Made by a program: the position numbers and the translations under genes. Source: Syntrophobacteraceae bacterium (GTDB lineage: Bacteria > Desulfobacterota > Syntrophobacteria > Syntrophobacterales > Syntrophobacteraceae). Taken from it: DNA of 59,114 nt. Positions within the stretch are counted from its first letter, which is position 1; every line of letters starts with the position of its first letter. Where the stretch lies: the NCBI GenBank assembly GCA_031292215.1, contig JARLHO010000136.1, positions 1-59,114 on the forward strand, given 5' to 3'. Below are positions 21,564 to 59,114 of this stretch, in pieces. A model generated the notes under the pieces. The model was not told the DNA's origin, ran no database searches, and saw nothing but the letters and a program-made list of their open reading frames with translations.

Positions 21564-21770
21564 TTACCCTAAAAGGGTCTTCCCGCTCGCTGTCGTGTTG
21601 GCCTTGGCCTGCAACCCCTGCGAGCCGGTCAGAATCGTTCCCTCGGCCCCGTATTGCATCGCCGCCAGCTCCCGTTGATTCTTTGCCGCGTTCTGCACGC
21701 CCTGGTCCGGTAAACTTGGAGGCGGAGGCGTTACCGGAACGGACGGCACGGATACAGATGGCGCTCCCAT
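21564..21770 (-). CDS. Small phage protein, 68 aa
   Basis: Starts at the ATG at 21770 with GGAG seven bases upstream, as part of a repeated leader (see 21771-21852). The sequence begins MGAPSVSVPSVPVTPPPPSL and continues with a helical NAAKNQRELAAMQYGAEG and a Gly/Ser/Thr tail. Similar small Pro-rich proteins occur near the adaptor genes of podoviruses, but their function is unknown to me. A longer frame at 21508-21945 overlapping it looks like a shadow. Confidence 0.5.
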   Translation of the reverse strand: MGAPSVSVPSVPVTPPPPSLPDQGVQNAAKNQRELAAMQYGAEGTILTGSQGLQAKANTTASGKTLLG

Positions 21771-21852
21771 ATAGTTGCTCCGTTTCTCTCCGCAACAGGT
21801 CAAAAGTTCGAGCCAAAAGGCAAAAGTGCGGAGTTTTTTGCTTTTGCCTTTT
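21771..21852 (-). promoter_or_regulatory. Repeated stem-loop leader, copy 1
   Basis: On the minus-strand transcript a perfect 12-bp stem (AAAAGGCAAAAG / CTTTTGCCTTTT, arms 21841-21852 and 21815-21826) encloses a loop containing ACTCCGC. About 25 bases later comes GCGGAG (21788-21793), complementary to that loop, then the ribosome binding site CGGAGC (21777-21782) and the start codon of the 68-aa gene. The stem-loop begins 13 bases after the stop of the previous gene. Two further copies are at 24567-24634 and 26612-26693. Confidence 0.55.
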
Positions 21853-21865
21853 CACTTTTTCTTTC

Positions 21866-22141
21866 CTACCTCTGCCTTCCGGACGCTCCACGTCCCTCGC
21901 GCCTCGGTTCCCCGCGTTCTCCCGCCTTCTTTTTGCTTCCCCCAATATCCGGGTACTTCTCCTTACCCTTGCCTCTTACTTCGGCCTTTTCCTTGCCCTC
22001 CCCAGACCGAGCAGCCCGCGCAGGCGCATTTTTTGCCTTCCTTTGCTCCTCCTTTCCTCCGGTCCGCAAACGTTTCCCCGGGAGCGCGAGATCACTTTTT
22101 TTCGGAATTGTTTCCCGTTCCTTTGCGTCCAACCTCGCCAT
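21866..22141 (-). CDS. Very basic small phage protein, 91 aa
   Basis: Start at the ATG at 22141, chosen for an AGGAGG ribosome binding site nine bases upstream. About 45 percent of residues are Lys, Arg or Glu, with many Gly and Ala (for example KEKAEVRGKGKEK). It probably is unstructured and could bind nucleic acid; there is no recognisable domain. Another frame runs through the same DNA on this strand, but it lacks a comparable start. Real translation is likely from the ribosome binding site, but the function is open. Confidence 0.45.
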   Translation of the reverse strand: MARLDAKERETIPKKSDLALPGKRLRTGGKEEQRKAKNAPARAARSGEGKEKAEVRGKGKEKYPDIGGSKKKAGERGEPRREGRGASGRQR

Positions 22142-22228
22142 AAGTAATTTCCTCCTCAAGCCTGTTTTAAAGGCGCTAAAAATTTCGATGGGGTTCACCG
22201 GGAAGGGACAGTATGCAGAAACCGCCCC

Positions 22229-22468
22229 TCATCTCGTCACTTTGCTTGCCGGCGGAAGACCTTCATGGCAATGCTTGTTGAACACGTTCCAGATGTCTTC
22301 AGCCGCCTGGCAGAAACGTTGCTCGCGCCGCTCGCATTCGGGTTTGTCCTGCTTGCCGTCGAGCTTGTCTTCGAGCTTCGACAACCTCTGGAGGATCATA
22401 GCGAGTAGAAGACTCATAAGAGCGCCAAACGAGCTCGTCACCGCACTGAGAACGTATAGAGCCGTCAT
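22229..22468 (-). CDS. Putative holin-like membrane protein, 79 aa
   Basis: One N-terminal hydrophobic segment (about residues 3-27, with FGALMSLLLAMILQ) is followed by a coiled-coil, charged stretch (LSKLEDKLDGKQDK) and a cytoplasmic C-terminus. This layout fits small holin or lysis accessory proteins. Its start overlaps the end of the lysozyme gene by 4 bases, which supports a lysis role. No specific holin family recognised. Confidence 0.5.
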   Translation of the reverse strand: MTALYVLSAVTSSFGALMSLLLAMILQRLSKLEDKLDGKQDKPECERREQRFCQAAEDIWNVFNKHCHEGLPPASKVTR

Positions 22469-22932
22469 AATATCCCAGCCAGTCTATCCGCCAGCCGCCG
22501 GCACCTGTTGGGTGCTTCGGTTGCAAAGCGGCTCTGCAGGATCGATTCAGCCGCCCCCTTCCAGTCCGACTGGGCCACATGGGACCGAAGCCTTGGCCAG
22601 CGCCACAGTCCGTACATGAGATCGAAAGCCATGTTCGCAAGTACTCGCTGAGCCTCGTCGGGCAGAGCGCCAAATCCATCGAACACCTGTTCGCAGCACG
22701 TGATGGCTGCCTCTACGTCCTCTGCAAACCACTCCGTTATCGTCTGGTCCGGGATGCCCGTCTTTAGCCAGGCGGCAATGTCCGACCACGCTATGCCGTG
22801 GGCCTCCAGGTTGTGGCCGATGCCCCCAGTCCAGTTCCCCCGCGAGTCTTTATACGGAGTGGACCGGATACCCTCATCGAAAGCTATTTCTGCCTGTAAG
22901 GCCGAGTCGGCCTTGAGATTGTCAATATCCAT
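22465..22932 (-). CDS. Phage T4-type lysozyme (endolysin)
   Basis: A 155-aa glycoside hydrolase of the phage lysozyme (GH24) class, cleaving the peptidoglycan glycan backbone for cell lysis. The catalytic E-x8-D-x5-T arrangement is complete: Glu20, Asp29 and Thr35 in the stretch DEGIRSTPYKDSRGNWTGGI. It continues with GIGHNL, and the C-terminal helices contain LANMAFDLMYGLWRWP. There is no signal peptide, so a holin would be needed to reach the wall. The next gene, overlapping by 4 bases, is a holin-like membrane protein. This lysis pair sits within the capsid/tail module. Confidence 0.88.
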   Translation of the reverse strand: MDIDNLKADSALQAEIAFDEGIRSTPYKDSRGNWTGGIGHNLEAHGIAWSDIAAWLKTGIPDQTITEWFAEDVEAAITCCEQVFDGFGALPDEAQRVLANMAFDLMYGLWRWPRLRSHVAQSDWKGAAESILQSRFATEAPNRCRRLADRLAGIL

Positions 22933-23092
22933 AGCGTCCCTCCTCTAATAGCGCAGACGGATAGCACCAAAATTGGTCAGTTCCCATCACCGCATTGGAA
23001 AACAGGTTCTCAGATTGTAATGGTCCTGCCCCCCTCAGGTCGCTCAAGTCGTCCACCGCCCTTTGTCCCGATTGAAATCCTGTCGATCCTCG

Positions 23093-23419
23093 TTAAACAC
23101 CACCCGCGCCAAAGGTTGGCGTGGCGGGTAGGTCTTTTTCCTGGACTGAATCGGAAGCAGTGGGCTTCCCCCGGGCGGCCCCGACACTCTGTTCAATCGC
23201 TTGCTCCCCAACCTTCACAACGCCTTCGATGATGTGCTCGGTAATGTTGCTCGGCTCTACCCGGGCAGCCCGGCTCATCCCATGCAGAAGCATGTCCAGG
23301 AACTGCCAGGTGCAGTTTGCCGCCATTTTCGGGTTATGCGCCAGCCAATGGTCGAATAAGGCCACAAAAGTCGAGACCACCGTAGAAATGGAAAAGACAA
23401 GAAGGCTATCGGTTCTCAT
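23093..23419 (-). CDS. Phage membrane-associated protein, 108 aa
   Basis: One probable N-terminal membrane segment (LLVFSISTVVSTFVALFDHW, residues about 6-25), then a soluble helical region ending in a Pro/Thr/Ala tail. No family recognised. It overlaps the upstream 54-aa gene and precedes the lysozyme gene by 160 bp. The neighbourhood of lysis genes suggests an envelope role, possibly as a second holin or antiholin, but this is only positional. Confidence 0.45.
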   Translation of the reverse strand: MRTDSLLVFSISTVVSTFVALFDHWLAHNPKMAANCTWQFLDMLLHGMSRAARVEPSNITEHIIEGVVKVGEQAIEQSVGAARGKPTASDSVQEKDLPATPTFGAGGV

Positions 23420-23570
23420 GAATTGACTCCTTGTATGCCTCGGTCATGGTCCGCAAATCGTCTTCCAAAACAGCCAACTGGTCTCTGAGTGTCATTTCGC
23501 CAGGGAAAAACGACGTTCTTACAACCTTTGGGAAATCATAGGGACTCGGAATAGTCGATAAAGTTGTCAT
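23406..23570 (-). CDS. Small phage protein, 54 aa
   Basis: A short coding region found by reading between larger genes: start ATG at 23570 sharing one base with the stop of the lipoprotein gene upstream, and stop TAG at 23406-23408 overlapping the next gene. It begins MTTLSTIPSPYDFPKVV and ends in a helical, acidic region (LAVLEDDLRTMTEAYKES). Overlaps at both ends argue for a real gene in a compact phage operon. Function unknown. Confidence 0.5.
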   Translation of the reverse strand: MTTLSTIPSPYDFPKVVRTSFFPGEMTLRDQLAVLEDDLRTMTEAYKESIHENR

Positions 23571-23887
23571 CACTTCACCCCGTAAATCGCTGTCACTGCA
23601 CTTGCCGCACCACTAAGACCACTTGCCAGCGCGGTCGGAAGCGTCCCTTCCATAAGTCCGCCGTTGCTGCTGCTCGAAGCGTTTTCAAGCTTGCCGTCCG
23701 GGTCGAACAAAAAGACGTCAATAAAATTACTGCCGACCGGGGTACTCGTTACTACCGCTATGACCGAATGGGCTCTCCCACTGACGATTACAGGATTGGG
23801 GGTGGAAAGAACGGTCATCTTCGAAGCGCAGCCGGCCATAAGACAGAGAGAAAGTCCAATGAGCACGTAGCGTAAGTATTTTTTCAT
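23570..23887 (-). CDS. Phage-encoded lipoprotein, about 105 aa
   Basis: The ATG at 23887 gives a typical lipoprotein signal (MKKYLRYVLIGLSLCLMAGC) with lipobox LMAGC; the open frame extends seven codons upstream. The mature part is a small beta-rich domain (NPVIVSGRAHSVIAVVTSTPVG). Small outer-membrane lipoproteins in lysis cassettes can act as spanins (Rz1-like), but this one is larger and not Pro-rich. It may instead exclude other phages or modify the envelope. Role uncertain. Confidence 0.55.
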   Translation of the reverse strand: MKKYLRYVLIGLSLCLMAGCASKMTVLSTPNPVIVSGRAHSVIAVVTSTPVGSNFIDVFLFDPDGKLENASSSSNGGLMEGTLPTALASGLSGAASAVTAIYGVK

Positions 23888-23894
23888 GGCGCCC

Positions 23895-24107
23895 TCACAG
23901 ACCCGCATTGCTGCGCATAAACGGAATCAGCAGAAAGAACGGAAGAATCAATGCGCCTTCGGCCCCCGCCTGTAGCCGTTCCCCCAGTTTATCGAGAAAA
24001 TCGGCATGGTCGGGATTGTCTTTTTTGATAGTCTCCAGGAGAGCCTCCGCCTGTGACTTGTGCTCATCGGTAATATGTAATGCCGGAAATCCGGGAATAT
24101 CTGCCAT
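23895..24107 (-). CDS. Small phage protein, 70 aa
   Basis: Start at the ATG at 24107, with GGAG about eight bases upstream. The first two thirds are charged and helical (EHKSQAEALLETIKKDNPDH). The last 20 residues are hydrophobic (ALILPFFLLIPFM), consistent with a C-terminal membrane anchor. Unknown family, located before the lipoprotein and lysis genes. Confidence 0.45.
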   Translation of the reverse strand: MADIPGFPALHITDEHKSQAEALLETIKKDNPDHADFLDKLGERLQAGAEGALILPFFLLIPFMRSNAGL

Positions 24108-24155
24108 TTTCTCATCTCCAAAGCCCCGGCTCACCGCCGGGGCCTCTTGTAAGCC

Positions 24156-24566
24156 CTACCTGACAGGCGCTACCTGTGTCGTCCCCGTCCCCGAGGCTTG
24201 AGTCTTAACCCCTGAAATCGCATGTCCCACTACGGCGTTTGCCGCAACGACCGCCGCCTGAACAGTCTGCGCGGTCTGTGTTAAAACGCTCGTCGAAAGC
24301 ACTCCTGCCTGATAGGCCTGAGCCGCGTTCGTCAATGCCGTAATAGTTGTTGTCGCTTGGGTCAAAAGTGGGTTTACAACCTGAGAGATTGTCGATGCGG
24401 TCCCCGGGAACAAAGCCTCGAGGACAGGTTCCACGGCTGTTTGAAGGCCCTTCACGAACTCGTCGTAGTACTGGATCACCTCCGACCAGTTCACTCCCTT
24501 GATCCAAGCCTCCACTTCCAGTATCTCCTGTTTTACTTCTCCAGCTATTTTTGAAAACCAACTCAT
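24156..24566 (-). CDS. Hypothetical phage protein, 136 aa
   Basis: MSWFSKIAGEVKQEILEVEA begins an amphipathic helical N-terminus. It is followed by an Ala/Thr/Val/Gln-rich low-complexity half (residues about 60-130) that could form membrane-active or coiled helices. No recognised domain. A GGGAG ribosome binding site lies seven bases upstream and is part of the second copy of the repeated leader. Position between the cementing-protein gene and the lysis genes suggests a minor virion or lysis role. Confidence 0.45.
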   Translation of the reverse strand: MSWFSKIAGEVKQEILEVEAWIKGVNWSEVIQYYDEFVKGLQTAVEPVLEALFPGTASTISQVVNPLLTQATTTITALTNAAQAYQAGVLSTSVLTQTAQTVQAAVVAANAVVGHAISGVKTQASGTGTTQVAPVR

Positions 24567-24634
24567 CGCTCACTCCCTTTCACTCCGCTGGAAGTCAAAA
24601 GACAAAAGCGCGGAGTTCTATACTTTTGCCTTTT
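24567..24634 (-). promoter_or_regulatory. Repeated stem-loop leader, copy 2
   Basis: The minus-strand transcript folds AAAAGGCAAAAG (from 24623-24634) onto CTTTTGTCTTTT (from 24597-24608), with one mismatch and a loop holding ACTCCGC. A complementary GCGGAG follows at 24583-24588, just before the GGGAG ribosome binding site of the 136-aa gene. It starts 10 bases after the preceding stop codon. The stem differs from copies 1 and 3, while the loop and its downstream partner are kept. Confidence 0.5.
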
Positions 24635-24644
24635 TTCTTTTGCC

Positions 24645-24917
24645 CTAACGCACATTTTGCGCGTTTGCCGCCATCCCGCTTTTCACATCCTGCGGACTTG
24701 CCCCTATCGCCTCAAGTTTTCCCCCAGTAAGCTGATCGACCGGATCGGGCATAGGCCCCAGCACTAGCCCCACTTCCTTTGCCTTCTTTTGCGCTGCCGA
24801 ATCTACCGGCTTCATAAACGGCCCCGGGACAACCTTGTCGCTCACTTCGGCCACTTCCCCCGGTTCATAGATTCTGTTATCGATAAACGCCTTTTCCAAA
24901 AGCTCATATTTGGCCAT
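24645..24917 (-). CDS. Hypothetical phage protein, 90 aa
   Basis: MAKYELLEKAFIDNRIYEPG followed by EVAEVSDKVVPGPFMKPVD gives a small SH3-like beta domain. Proteins with this start are common directly after capsid or cementing-protein genes in tailed phages and may be head-associated. The C-terminus is Gly/Ala-rich and flexible. It follows the Bbp16-like gene by 11 bp. Confidence 0.55.
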   Translation of the reverse strand: MAKYELLEKAFIDNRIYEPGEVAEVSDKVVPGPFMKPVDSAAQKKAKEVGLVLGPMPDPVDQLTGGKLEAIGASPQDVKSGMAANAQNVR

Positions 24918-24928
24918 GACTAACTCCT

Positions 24929-25456
24929 TTAGACGTACTGAGTCGAATACCCGCTGGGGTAGCCGAGGTTTGGCCCAAGCAACTCGCGGTCGAGCACTAT
25001 GGTGGACACGATCGAGCCCGCAGTCATGTTGGCGCCCGTAACCGTGTAGGTGAGCTTCAAAAACTTCTGGACGCCCGGAACGATATCAAGATAAGTTATC
25101 TGCCCTGCAACCAGGTTGGCTACCGGGATGACCGGAGTCATGTTGATGACGTTCCATGCCCCCGGGGCGCCCGCTCCATTGTCGGGAGCTGTCTGAAGCG
25201 CGATCTGCATGCTGGCGCCAGTCCCGGCGAAAGCGCTCATCACTTCGATGGCGATCTGGAGATCCGGACCGTCGCCGATCCCCACATCCCGACCTCTTCC
25301 CGATGGGCTCGACGCTACCTGGCTGACATCGATTATATTCTGTGAATCGGTGGCGCTACCCGTAGTGAAGGTCGTCCCCGAATTGACCGAAGTACCGGAA
25401 AGCGCCCCTTGAGCGTTTACGCTTCCATCGAACAGTAAGAGAGCATCCATTATCAT
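24929..25456 (-). CDS. Capsid-stabilising (cementing) protein, Bbp16-like
   Basis: About 175 aa from the ATG at 25456, selected by a GAGGA ribosome binding site; the open frame extends further upstream without one. The sequence MIMDALLLFDGS, then TDSQNIIDVS...RGRDVGIGDGPDL and PVANLVAGQITYLDIVPG, matches the Bbp16-type proteins that follow the major capsid gene in BPP-1-like podoviruses and reinforce the capsid. It is a beta-sandwich-like chain without signal peptide, 108 bp after the capsid gene. Confidence 0.7.
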   Translation of the reverse strand: MIMDALLLFDGSVNAQGALSGTSVNSGTTFTTGSATDSQNIIDVSQVASSPSGRGRDVGIGDGPDLQIAIEVMSAFAGTGASMQIALQTAPDNGAGAPGAWNVINMTPVIPVANLVAGQITYLDIVPGVQKFLKLTYTVTGANMTAGSIVSTIVLDRELLGPNLGYPSGYSTQYV

Positions 25457-25564
25457 TGCTAAGTCCTCACTTTCGGATGTGTATAGGTGAGTGGGTGGAC
25501 GGGGAGAACGGGAAAAAACCGGCCTTGGGCTCATCGGTTTTCCCATTCACCTGTTCAACGGCTT

Positions 25565-26611
25565 CTAGACAACTCGAGCCTCAGTATTGAGCAACTGGTC
25601 ACAGGTCCTTATCGGGATGCCCCTGAAGCTTGTCACCGGCTTTCCAGCGAATTCGTCGATTCGAAGCAGCGTGTTGCTTTTGTTCAAAGCCTGAATGTCA
25701 AGCCAGGTGGAAATTGCCCGGTTGCAGTAAAAGCCGGCCTGTCCCATGGATAGGGCCGGCTCGCCGTTCTGACCGGATGTCTGCACGTTGCCGGCCCTTG
25801 CAGGCTGGATTGGAAGCCTATGAATGGCGCGAACCATTAGATTTATGAGGTTCGGGGGGGTTGCACCGGAAAGTGAGGTGACATCGATATTGCAAATCCT
25901 GACTGCAAATCTCCAGTCCTTGACAACAAGACCTGCGTCCCATTTGTAATGGGTCCGCCATGCGTAGTACGGGTTATTGTTGGCATCGTAGACGGGGGTC
26001 TTTCCCATGTCCTCCTGAACAAACCCGGCTTTTCTGCCCCTTGGGAATATCCCGTGAATGGCCGTGGGACCCCACATGATGAGCCACAGGGAGGTGTTGG
26101 TGCTGCCGGTGCCGCCAGCGTCTATAACGTTATTCGCGGTCTGGGCGTTAGACGTGCTGACGCTCGGGTACCTCGGCGCCAAGCCCATGAAGGCGGCCGG
26201 AATACTCGTGATATTATTGTAGAAAATGGTGCCGGCCATCTGCTGGTTCATTCCCTCGAGAAAGGCCAACTCTTCGGAGAGCCGAAAGGCGCGATCGTTT
26301 CCGGCAAGGGCCACCAGATCGACGTCGATATCGCTGTAAGTCTCCAACATGCCGCAGGTCTCCGTGATCTGCGCCGTAGTGGATTTGCCCCTCGGCACCC
26401 CCTGATTGAGCAGTCGCCAGTAAGCCTGCGGAAGCCCGGTTCTGATAGTCGTCTTGTGGCCGGTAGGAAGATTTCCCTCCACCCAGAGCATATCTTCCAA
26501 AATCTCGTTTGTCTGCGAAAGCAAATTGATGATCTCGGCAATCTTTCCGTCGTCGTCTATACGCTTCGCCCAGTCCATGAGCGTCAAAGCCATCGGTCCT
26601 AAGGTCGCCAT
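25565..26611 (-). CDS. Major capsid protein, Bbp17/GP7-like
   Basis: About 348 aa. The ATG at 26611 has GGAG eight bases upstream within the repeated leader; the frame extends 16 codons upstream but without a ribosome binding site. Features such as LTLMDWAKRIDDDGKI, DMLWVEGNLPTGHKT, GMNQQMAGTIFYNN and the C-terminal FRGIPIRTCDQLL agree with the major capsid proteins of BPP-1/BcepC6B-type podoviruses, which adopt an HK97-like fold. Scaffold upstream and cementing protein downstream give the canonical order. The frame is uninterrupted. Confidence 0.82.
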   Translation of the reverse strand: MATLGPMALTLMDWAKRIDDDGKIAEIINLLSQTNEILEDMLWVEGNLPTGHKTTIRTGLPQAYWRLLNQGVPRGKSTTAQITETCGMLETYSDIDVDLVALAGNDRAFRLSEELAFLEGMNQQMAGTIFYNNITSIPAAFMGLAPRYPSVSTSNAQTANNVIDAGGTGSTNTSLWLIMWGPTAIHGIFPRGRKAGFVQEDMGKTPVYDANNNPYYAWRTHYKWDAGLVVKDWRFAVRICNIDVTSLSGATPPNLINLMVRAIHRLPIQPARAGNVQTSGQNGEPALSMGQAGFYCNRAISTWLDIQALNKSNTLLRIDEFAGKPVTSFRGIPIRTCDQLLNTEARVV

Positions 26612-26693
26612 CGAGGTCGCTCCGTTTCTCTCCGCAATAAGTCGCAAGGAGGAAGGCAAAAGCTAAAGTGCGGAGTTCTTCGCTTTGGCCTTT
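26612..26693 (-). promoter_or_regulatory. Repeated stem-loop leader, copy 3 (capsid gene)
   Basis: Between scaffold and major capsid genes. On the transcript a stem of AAAGGCCAAAG (26683-26693) with CTTTAGCTTTTGCCTT (26653-26668) carries a loop with ACTCCGC. The complementary GCGGAG occurs at 26630-26635, followed by the capsid ribosome binding site CGGAGC at 26619-26624. The stem-loop starts about 18 bases after the scaffold stop codon. Confidence 0.5.
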
Positions 26694-27528: not shown

Positions 27529-27634
27529 CTCTTCATTGGCTGCGCTTAAGCCGGGCCGGGGCAAGCACACAAGGTTTTTTTAAATCCATTTATTTTCGCT
27601 GCGACAGGTATACGGGAAAGTAATTGTTCCTTCA

Positions 27635-27701
27635 AAACGGCAATCTAAAGCGGCAATCAGAAGCGGCAACTAGAAGCGGAAAGCAGAAGCGGAAAAATAG
27701 A
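27635..27701 (-). repeat. Array of five 13-bp direct repeats upstream of the scaffold gene
   Basis: Plus-strand units are AAACGGCAATCTA, AAGCGGCAATCAG, AAGCGGCAACTAG, AAGCGGAAAGCAG and a degenerate AAGCGGAAAAATAG. The consensus AAGCGGCAAYCAG is the same as in the array at 43998-44062. The array lies 165 bp upstream of the scaffold start and upstream of the terminator, a place where a promoter or operator is expected. It has no spacers and is not a CRISPR. Confidence 0.65.
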
Positions 27702-28203
27702 ATAGAAGTAAAAATTTATATCCTTATCGGCTAAGGCAAAAGCCGAGGCTATCGGCAATGAAACTGTCGCATAATTCATCGAATCTTTGTCTTTTTTCTT
27801 CCGAATAACAGATCGAAAAGGGGGGCTTACGCTGCTATTTTAATACGAGGCTAATAACGCGGGATAAAACCGGCTAAATAGAAGTATGATCTGGAATTCC
27901 TGTCAAACAGGAGAAGATAGGCAGCCAATTGCCAATTCGAACAACCCTGCAAAATGACCGAACATACGCGGATGGATAGTTAAAAAAGCGAACTCTTAAA
28001 TTTTACGATAAGAACAAACACCGACGGGGAACAGAATAATCGATCAATCCTTTCGCAAAAACAAAGGTCCGCACTAGTAAAACCGGGGATAAGAAAAATT
28101 AAGCGCTTCCCAAAAGTTAAGATGCACTCGCTTTACTCTCCCATCCAGTGCGGACCCGAATATCAAAAAAGGCGCCTTTCCCGTAAACACTGTGGAGGCT
28201 CTA
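27702..28203. other. Non-coding junction between phage module and nuo operon
   Basis: About 500 bp of more AT-rich DNA without a convincing gene. Short frames (for example a 63-codon minus frame at 28074-28265) lack a ribosome binding site. No tRNA, integrase remnant or att-like duplication was seen. The nuo operon ends at 28204, so this stretch holds its 3' untranslated region and any promoter for the phage module. Confidence 0.5.
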
Positions 28204-40512: not shown

Positions 40513-40616
40513 TCGACCCATGTTTACCCAGATATTAGGTAGTGGGTCATTTCCTGGCATGAAGCACGTTTCTACCTCCTATGTCGAACGCCCCCCTTTC
40601 GCAGAGGGCTGGGCCT

Positions 40617-40660
40617 GATCGCCCCCCTTTTTTTCAAAGGGGGTTTGGGGGGATTTACTC
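40617..40660 (+). repeat. Dispersed C/G hairpin repeat, copy A
   Basis: The core GATCGCCCCCC, T-run, CAAAGGGGG, GGGGGGATTTACTC forms a strong hairpin and belongs to the family also at 40878-40993, 51327-51463 and 58899-58975. It is inverted relative to copy B 260 bp to the right. Confidence 0.8.
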
Positions 40661-40877
40661 TGCCTGCGCCAGAAAAAACGAAACAACTGTCCAATACACA
40701 TCAGTTCGGGGGGCAAGGATCCGGTCAAAAACGAGCGACGATTTAGCTAGGCAAAAACCCAATGATCGGGTTTTCTATCGGCAGAGTAAAAGATTTTGGG
40801 TTATTCAGTACTCAGGTTTTTCGACCTCGATATCCTTAAGAACAGGGACGGAGCTTACTCCGTGCTGTACGAACAGA

Positions 40878-40993
40878 CTTGAAATCCCCCCAACCCCCCT
40901 TTGAAAAAAAGGGGGGCGATCGAGCCAAGCCTAGCCAAGCCCCTCCAGGCAAATCTCCGGTAAGGGGTAAGTGGGCGCATGTGTGGGTAATTG
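40878..40993 (-). repeat. Dispersed C/G hairpin repeat, copy B (long form)
   Basis: Contains the hairpin core in inverse orientation to copy A, then GATCGAGCCAAGCC and the distal block with TAAGTGGGCGCATG and GGGTAATTG. The distal block recurs in inverted form at the left end of copy C (51327-51355), so the repeat unit is at least about 115 bp. It overlaps no convincing gene. Confidence 0.75.
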
Positions 40994-41195
40994 TAAGCGC
41001 CATGGAGGCGGGGATTACGCATCGACTATGGACTATTGAAGACATTGCTAAATTGGCAGATTGATCAAATAAATGGCAGGTTCAAAAAAGCGTAAAAAAT
41101 CCAAATCAAAAAAATCCCCACAGTGAAGGCAAAGAGCCATTCCAGGCACCAACCTGGGGTTCCTGACCAAAATTCGCAACGCGTTAGCGGTTCTC

Positions 41196-43812: not shown

Positions 43813-43997
43813 TCGAAGCCCATACGTCGACGGCGCCCGGCTATCGCCACAGCGTTTTGCCGCCCTCCATCCGTATTAGCCTATAGTAAGCAAAACCATG
43901 CGGTCAGGTCGTTATCGGACTCGCCGCGCCAAACCCATTGATTCAGTCGTATCCGCCCCCTGCGCGGACACTCTAGGACGCCGTGAAAAGAGCTGCA

Positions 43998-44062
43998 AAA
44001 TGGCAACCTGAAGCGGCAACCAGAAAGGGCAACCTGAAGCGGCAACCAGAAAGGGCAAAATC
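43998..44062 (-). repeat. Array of five 13-bp direct repeats upstream of the portal gene
   Basis: Plus-strand units are AAATGGCAACCTG, AAGCGGCAACCAG, AAAGGGCAACCTG, AAGCGGCAACCAG and a partial AAAGGGCAAAATC, alternating between two subtypes. The consensus equals that of the array at 27635-27701, and the orientation relative to the downstream phage gene is the same. Probable regulatory or replication-type iterons, or a family of dispersed intergenic repeats. Confidence 0.65.
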
Positions 44063-44152
44063 GAGGGGTAATCCGATTGTAGCGCTCGCGCCCCGCCTTC
44101 AGCCAAAAACATGTTGACACTATAAATTGACATAAGCTACATTATAGCGGAA

Positions 44153-51157: not shown

Positions 51158-51326
51158 GGCTGCTCCCAATCAAAATCCGCCGCCGAGGCGAAGTGAGGCC
51201 GAAATGGAATTCGACGAGAATAAAATAGAAACCAACCCCGCAAATCGCGCTTCACGGGAAAACACACAGCCGGCGCCCATCCGGAAACCCGGGTCGCGAT
51301 GGCGGTGGGCACAAGCTTTATCATTT

Positions 51327-51463
51327 CAATTACCCGCACATGCGCCCACTTACCCCTTGGCGGAGAACCGCAAGGAGGGGCTTGGCTCGAAATCCCAAGC
51401 GGCAGTAGAGTAAATCCCCCCGCCCCCCCTTTGCACAAAAGGGGGGTGATTGAGCCTTGCCGG
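51327..51463 (+). repeat. Dispersed C/G hairpin repeat, copy C (long form)
   Basis: The left block CAATTACCCGCACATG with CGCCCACTTACCCCTT is the inverse of the distal part of copy B. The right block (GAGTAAATCCCCCC, then CCCCCCCTTTGCACAAAAGGGGGG and TGATTGAGCCTTGCC) is the inverse of copy D at the right end of the window. It lies between the Wza pseudogene and the capD-like gene. Confidence 0.8.
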
Positions 51464-58898: not shown

Positions 58899-58975
58899 GT
58901 AATGACGCGCATGGAGGGGCAAGGCTCAATCACCCCCCTTTTTTGCAAAGGGGGGCCGGGGGGATTTACTCTCCC
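58899..58975 (+). repeat. Dispersed C/G hairpin repeat, copy D
   Basis: TAATGACGC, AAGGCTCAATCACCCCCC, TTGCAAAGGGGGG and GGGGGGATTTACTC match copy C (51327-51463, inverted) over about 75 bp with few differences. With copy C it encloses 51.4-58.9 kb, that is capD and the terminase/repressor island, as inverted repeats. Confidence 0.8.
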
Positions 58976-59114
58976 GCCGCTCTCTTATGAAACTTCATTT
59001 GTAGCAACTGTCTTAAAAATCAAGAGGTCATAATGTTATTTTGCGCACCAAAGCGAGTCATCTCTCACCATGGCATTGAGAACAGTAAGGAGCTTTCTCA
59101 TGCAGGCCGTGAGA
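58976..59114. other. Right edge, no gene recognised
   Basis: The last 140 bp contain no complete gene. An ATG at about 59070 (ATGGCATTGAGAACAGT) opens a frame that runs off the window; too little is visible to name it. Confidence 0.4.

Follow-up and report, generated by a model that had tools for sequence, protein, structure and literature searches.

Three leaders that precede a 68-aa gene, a 136-aa gene and the major capsid gene in a prophage of a Syntrophobacteraceae bacterium are copies of a small hairpin element dispersed between the genes of part of its genus, a conclusion that is well supported. The leaders (c1, c2 and c3) lie in a 59,114-nucleotide stretch of contig JARLHO010000136.1 (assembly GCA_031292215.1); this whole stretch is called the window below. 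Some copies of the element have a tail with their own Shine-Dalgarno (SD) sequence together with a hairpin loop that is complementary to the strand next to it. On balance we favour the reading in which this tailed subset of a dispersed element tunes translation of the next gene. A translational role via loop-partner pairing is the most likely, though unproven, function added in the tailed subset.

A hairpin element dispersed in the genus

The first evidence of spread was that c1, used as a query, finds copies outside the window. The genus sample consisted of 11 genomes (G000-G010) of what is probably a Syntrophobacteraceae genus. Model R1 was built from five copies, c1, c2 and c3 included, all of which have loop and tail. 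At E ≤ 1e-3 it gives at least 26 distinct places, five of them the training copies, in 5 of the 11 genomes: at least 14 in G001, at least 5 in G000, at least 4 in G007, at least 2 in G005 and at least 1 in G010. These counts are lower bounds because 150 candidates were scored per genome; among as many candidates, none passed the same threshold in the other six genomes. The 39 copies that were fetched for comparison are those retrieved and do not make a census. Their inverted repeat folds as a hairpin with a mean z-score of −2.58, three copies being above 0.

Hits lie in prophages and elsewhere, and 11 of the 39 fetched copies are in prophage loci. Specifically, the prophage of G001 (L086) has two copies with loop and tail, before bbp16 and before a relative of tail275, and its capsid and 68-aa gene leaders are different from the element. 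Contig C68 of G007 has three copies, which precede relatives of the 68-aa gene and tail275 and a 179-aa (internal-virion-like) gene. Placement thus differs between related prophages, as copies in the window precede the capsid, 136-aa and 68-aa genes, and of these only the 68-aa gene has a relative preceded by a copy in G007, and none in G001.

Outside prophages, which here means outside recognised prophage loci, G001 has copies at a pilT-/pilU-like junction and at a glnD-/glnA-like junction; we take the genes to be these from reading their translations, not from a database result. At the first of these, a copy with loop and tail (3476-3558 of L367, contig C35) separates two genes for PilT/PilU-type ATPases, and its own SD region takes the place of the local one. 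The same junction lacks the element, by eye, in the other ten genomes, so that it is present in 1 of 11; in G010 the junction has a different hairpin-like stretch. Such presence and absence suggests that the element moves. More tentatively, it may be a mobile translation-control cassette that integrates after a stop codon, provides the next gene with a new SD and a restraining pseudoknot loop and so rewires operon coupling in host and prophage, but we regard this extended version as doubtful.

The three leaders in the window

All three leaders are on the minus strand and have the parts that the initial annotation ascribed to them: an A/U-rich hairpin, said to start 10-18 nt after the preceding stop codon and seen at 13 (c1), 12 (c2) and 19 nt (c3), with ACTCCGC in its loop, and downstream a complementary GCGGAG followed by a ribosome binding site, for which coordinates were found in every copy. 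Copy c1 (21778..21852) has its 5′ arm at 21841-21852, its loop at 21827-21840 and its 3′ arm at 21815-21826, with ACTCCGC at 21828-21834, GCGGAG at 21788-21793 and the SD-like ACGGAG at 21778-21783. In c2 (24572..24632) the 5′ arm is at 24623-24632, the loop at 24609-24622 and the 3′ arm at 24599-24608; ACTCCGC lies at 24610-24616, GCGGAG at 24583-24588 and SD-like GGGAG at 24573-24577. For c3 (26620..26692) the corresponding positions are 26682-26692, 26664-26681 and 26653-26663, and the motifs are found at 26670-26676, 26630-26635 and 26620-26625 (SD-like ACGGAG). R1 scores of 81.7 (c1), 70.3 (c2) and 73.8 bits (c3) are those of training copies. Stems are 12, 10 and 11 bp long in c1, c2 and c3, respectively, the last with one C/U mismatch. 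The first loop part before ACTCCGC has 6, 6 and 5 nt, the distance from ACTCCGC to the 3′ arm is 1, 1 and 6 nt, that from the 3′ arm to GCGGAG is 21, 10 and 17 nt, and the GGAG of the SD is 7, 6 and 8 nt from the start codon. The sequence AACTCCGCNCTTT has exactly three mismatch-free occurrences in the window, all of them at these leaders.

It is important to note that the copies cannot be treated as independent, given 78% identity between c1 and c3 over 78 nt; the stems of c1 and c2 differ by a single C-to-U change that turns G-C into G-U. The earlier claim that the stem changes between copies while its pairing is kept does not hold, because the stems of the three copies have nearly the same sequence. 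Among the nine copies having both motifs, 1 of 15 stem pairs is changed on both sides, in one sequence, and 54 of 500 shuffles equal this. Taken one by one, the loop-partner pairings are weak evidence. A complement between loop and downstream strand as long as the real one (7 nt) appears in 46 (c1), 65 (c2) and 16 (c3) of 2000 shuffles (0.8-3.3%), and one of at least 6 nt in 237, 262 and 149. Fold z-scores are modest (−1.15, −2.33 and −0.91 for c1, c2 and c3), and the minimum-energy fold of c2 is without the described hairpin. Membership in a known RNA family was excluded, as 0 Rfam families reach the gathering score in the window.

The loop and the Shine-Dalgarno tail

The loop and the tail occur together. 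ACTCCGC is in the loop of 9 of the 10 tailed copies versus 4 of the 29 untailed ones (Fisher p 3e-5); adding the tail-only place L493 gives 9 of 11 (p 1e-4). Because R1, trained on both features, is biased, the tail motif was searched alone. It occurs at 75 places in the 11 genomes, a frequency not above the reversed control. Ten of the 75 are copies of the family, and the other 65 (64 distinct) have 0 ACTCCGC within 130 nt upstream and one CTCCGC. The bare pattern ACTCCGCN{10,40}GCGGAG is likewise not above the reversed control in 59 genomes, being rarer in total.

Alignment of pairing columns used only the nine copies having both motifs, which represent three prophage loci and a pilU-like gene. 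All 13 pairing columns are invariant, as compared to 15 of the 56 other columns without gaps (hypergeometric p 1e-6). ACTCCGC is constant in these nine tailed copies, whose adjacent loop bases vary. The copy that precedes the tail275 relative in G007 (3873-3980 of L373) has a largely different stem; its loop and partner are kept, and the complement reaches 9 nt by eye. Complementarity of the loop to the downstream strand next to the SD is found in c1-c3 and six further copies.

Based on these comparisons the element can be described as follows. It is about 60-95 bp long, is present in prophages and outside, and settles just behind stop codons. One arm of its basic body is rich in A and G, the other in C and T, and traces of a 7-nt repeat are seen. 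Some copies, mostly in prophages, add an SD tail of their own (GCGGAGNGAAACGGAG) and the loop ACTCCGC, whose complement is the initial portion of that tail. We infer that in these copies loop and GCGGAG form an H-type pseudoknot, the end of which would lie about 5 nt before the SD. The geometry would be that of a stem of mostly 8-12 bp, a first loop of about 6 nt, a junction of mostly 1 nt and a last loop of mostly 10-22 nt. The pseudoknot would hinder ribosome entry, and translation of the next gene would partly depend on ribosomes reaching the preceding stop codon. Untailed copies are probably gene-end hairpins only (a terminator or mRNA-end structure), or functionless. The pseudoknot or SD-masking switch proposed initially stands in part: loop and partner are kept in nine tailed copies and the geometry fits, but compensatory change in the loop-partner helix is absent.

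Several observations weigh against a translational and mobile element. One tailed copy, L372, is without ACTCCGC, and the next start called is 293 nt away from it; L493 is a tail before a start without such a hairpin. The Fisher test overstates the evidence because tailed copies are related to each other, and R1 was trained on copies carrying both loop and tail. The loop-partner helix has zero compensatory changes in the nine copies, six of its seven pairs being constant and the seventh unpaired in two copies; since the helix is without such change, common descent alone could explain its conservation. Nested folding gives the helix a noticeable probability in 2 of the 9 copies (0.22 and 0.38), as would be expected if the helix can coexist with the stem only as a pseudoknot, or if it does not form. 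Mobility of the element rests on presence and absence, as its exact ends could not be fixed and neither target duplications nor a moving enzyme were identified (no search aimed at either was made).

Two further pairings were viewed by eye and are not used here. A second hairpin masking the SD (UUGUU/AACGG; CUUCC/GGGAG in c2) fits about 6 of the 9 tailed copies and is not relied on. Complementarity of other SD tails of the G001 prophage (GCGACTGAAAGGAG) to its loops was not used either. The tail sequence TTGCGGAGTGAAACGGAGCAA is also found at 1093-1113 of L501, an AT-rich viral contig, without an adjoining hairpin of the element kind.

Location at gene ends

Fetched copies are mostly between predicted genes or overlap gene ends by at most 18 nt, and those outside recognised prophage loci sit behind stop codons. 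More specifically, of 23 non-prophage copies with both neighbours within 500 nt, 15 are between codirectional and 8 between convergent genes, and 0 between divergent ones; the gaps of the host sample are 262, 65 and 66, respectively. The lack of divergent locations has p 0.015 by number of gaps and 0.0007 by bases, and the convergent excess p 0.026 and 0.007. Thirteen of the 23 copies are at E ≤ 1e-3 (9 codirectional, 4 convergent) and ten are weaker, at E 0.001-0.05 (6 and 4). These are at most 22 independent copies, as those on G000:C170 and G010:C36 look like one orthologous site. Eleven of the 15 codirectional copies are sense to both neighbours and four are antisense. The distribution of 15, 8 and 0 therefore indicates that the wider family follows gene 3′ ends and not gene starts.

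This distribution fits the main rival of our reading, a passive gene-end hairpin repeat (a terminator or mRNA-end structure) in which SD tail and loop complement are carried along as passengers, with no function in common. Under such an explanation it is natural that 29 of the 39 copies are untailed and several are between convergent genes and none between divergent ones, and that 11 of the 29 untailed copies fold at z −4 or lower, as compared to +0.5 to −3.3 for the ten tailed ones. The loop-partner helix without covariation agrees with it as well. Moreover, the loop resembles an anti-SD, and chance complements to SD-rich tails are for this reason not rare. It explains less well that loop and tail co-occur far above the untailed copies, or that nine tailed copies have the loop motif unchanged and differ in the loop bases next to it. 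We give the passenger explanation a substantial but minor chance. The initial annotation itself had named a common intergenic repeat not tied to start codons as the alternative; this describes the hairpin largely, but not the subset with loop and tail.

Capsid leaders of related phages

Relatives of the capsid gene were taken from viral contigs (the best 80 of 203) and from genome contigs (29 loci); in the genus and its wider relatives, 7 of 97 genomes had a match, the genome of the window counted. Upstream regions were compared in 34 cases (23 distinct), i.e. 28 of 29 close viral contigs and six genome loci; L028, for which upstream DNA is missing, was left out. The ACTCCGC/GCGGAG pair is found upstream of the capsid gene in 0 of these 34 regions, which excludes a leader conserved before capsid genes. 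Conservation in related phages is equally not borne out by a four-leader profile, which has no match in the 80 related viral loci at E ≤ 5, nor by R1, which finds nothing at E ≤ 1 in 17 of the 80. Patterns similar to the bare one gave 1 and 32 stretches in viral contigs, which we judge near chance from a rough estimate of collection size; a stricter pattern had 0 matches there, and the tail alone had 1, in unrelated context. Many capsid relatives have upstream a hairpin-like gap of other sequence, and others only a short gap.

The initial annotation had described the leader as one that tunes the translation of abundant virion proteins, i.e. as a phage-specific RNA. In its favour are the three copies in one late cluster, one of them before the capsid gene, and the further copies before tail-cluster and internal-virion-like genes of related prophages. 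Such dedication is difficult to reconcile with copies before, behind and between host-type genes, with capsid relatives lacking the motif pair and with viral loci lacking a profile match. We hold a leader of this kind to be most improbable.

Seven-nucleotide units

The hairpin-like gaps before capsid relatives often consist of tandem 7-nt units that start near the preceding stop codon, the purine-rich arm leading. The 29 close viral contigs (282 kb), several of them near-identical and all kept, have 59 strong runs at period 7; period 14 has 31, and each remaining period between 4 and 20 has 0-9. Elsewhere period-7 runs number 3 in 51 distant loci (527 kb), 1 in the six genome loci (68 kb) and 3 in a host sample (332 kb). 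There are no strong period-7 runs in the window, and the window copies hold few degenerate 7-nt units, by eye. In codirectional gaps the lag-7 match is 0.355 in close viral contigs (108 gaps) and 0.316 in prophage loci of the genus (59), with other lags at 0.25-0.27; it is 0.307 in the prophage of the window (15 gaps; lag 8 gives 0.309), 0.269 in distant phages (115) and 0.258 in the host (69).

Among the close viral contigs (L003-L031), gene gaps with tandem GGACTGA, GTGAACA, GAATCGT, GGACGGA and GGTAAGG are seen, e.g. L014:5842-5971, L013:3232-3360 and L021:6515-6578. These repeats set in close to the preceding stop codon, and some run on as an inverted arm before the SD. The genus genomes differ in their abundant 7-nt tandem repeat.

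Among 59 genomes, three GGACTGA units in a row occur only in G003, at 37 places, and four GGAAGCN units only in G000 (150), G005 (176) and G007 (1), overlapping registers being counted in both cases. A prophage contig of G003 (GGACTGA run) and that of G005 (GGAAGC units in the capsid leader) use the unit of their own host, and an array of G001 (L302) resembles units found in the prophage of that genome. In these examples prophage and host lineage have a common repertoire of repeats.

The excess of period 7 seen between genes in close viral contigs and in prophage loci of the genus, together with 7-nt arrays specific to single genomes, would suit a selfish or slippage repeat at the DNA level, whose arms arise by 7-nt duplication and inversion and which has no RNA role in any copy. 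A repeat of this nature does not account for a location behind stops with none divergent, for sense orientation in 11 of 15 codirectional non-prophage copies or for the association of loop and tail, and we consider it quite unlikely.

Genomic setting of the leaders

A prophage late region, read on the minus strand, occupies the left part of the window. By Pfam and PHROG it encodes a GP7-type major capsid, Bbp16-like, tail and internal-virion-like proteins, and it adjoins NADH dehydrogenase/antiporter-type genes. Downstream of c1 is the 68-aa gene (21564..21770), a phage protein with function not assigned (PHROG 831, E 5.7e-13) that has relatives in other phage loci. The 136-aa gene downstream of c2 (24156..24566) has no family match in Pfam or PHROG; tblastn relatives are present in 18 of 45 loci compared, near-identical contigs among them. 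Downstream of c3 is the major capsid gene of the GP7 family (25565..26611; Pfam PF20911, E 2.2e-135; PHROG 212). Genes were called by a simple caller and some starts are wrong, e.g. the 68-aa gene was called as 31 aa.

Other repeats are present in the window. A terminator-like GC-rich hairpin (GGCCCCGGCGGTGAGCCGGGGC) is at 24108-24155, behind the 136-aa gene and within the late cluster. A 13-nt tandem repeat (GAAGCGGCAAYC-like) forms two arrays, one at 27621-27708, a short way upstream of the protease-like gene with which the late cluster begins, and one at 43997-44071, far off in the host part. A family of 50-64 nt inverted repeats (CCCCCCTTTTTTTCAAAGGGGG...) has several copies outside the prophage (40606-40996, 51324-51461 and 58904-58981).

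Relation to known elements

The preQ1, SAM-II and SAM/SAH riboswitches are H-type pseudoknot translational switches in which a loop pairs with the strand next to the SD. The hairpin loop of the element could pair next to the SD in the same architecture. Unlike these switches, it comes with no Rfam match in the window and with downstream genes that have no common metabolic theme, and no ligand is implied. Small palindromic repeats are most often considered to be terminators, stabilisers of mRNA or parasites of the genome.

REP/REPIN, ERIC, Correia/NEMIS and RUP elements, which are small dispersed palindromic or MITE-like repeats of bacteria, are, according to the available part of a review, short, multicopy, mostly intergenic and form RNA hairpins, and some of their stem-loops have been proposed to affect adjacent mRNAs (PMC2229807). 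The element described here is similar to the REP, ERIC and NEMIS kind in being short and hairpin-forming, with many dispersed intergenic copies and with presence and absence at an orthologous site. It differs in that its arms are degenerate 7-nt units and that a subset has its own SD together with a complementary loop. The text of that review contains none of the terms 'ribosome binding', 'Shine-Dalgarno' and 'start codon' (PMC2229807). As far as the accessible parts of the sources go, TAACTGA heptamers of Beggiatoaceae, Cyanobacteria and Bacteroidetes are intergenic, often right before start codons, and provide stops in all three frames (PMC4679880), and the heptanucleotide elements of Geobacter metallireducens are intergenic 7-nt units (PMC2700814). 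TAACTGA arrays are, in the same portion of their source, direct repeats that are not predicted to fold and are mostly without SD (PMC4679880), whereas the units of the element form inverted arms and vary between genomes, and tailed copies bring an SD. Literature on heptamers, Syntrophobacteraceae, small palindromic repeats and capsid leader pseudoknots held nothing that we recognised as this element, most subscription papers being outside the scope.

Conclusions

Look-alike multicopy leaders in one phage need not be a dedicated phage RNA family, and the present case may serve as a warning in this respect. Presence and absence of the element at orthologous junctions provides natural test pairs. 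If the proposed role is true, a repeat that has an SD as well as a complementary loop would amount to a ready-made part for translational control, which could be moved between operons and between host and prophage.

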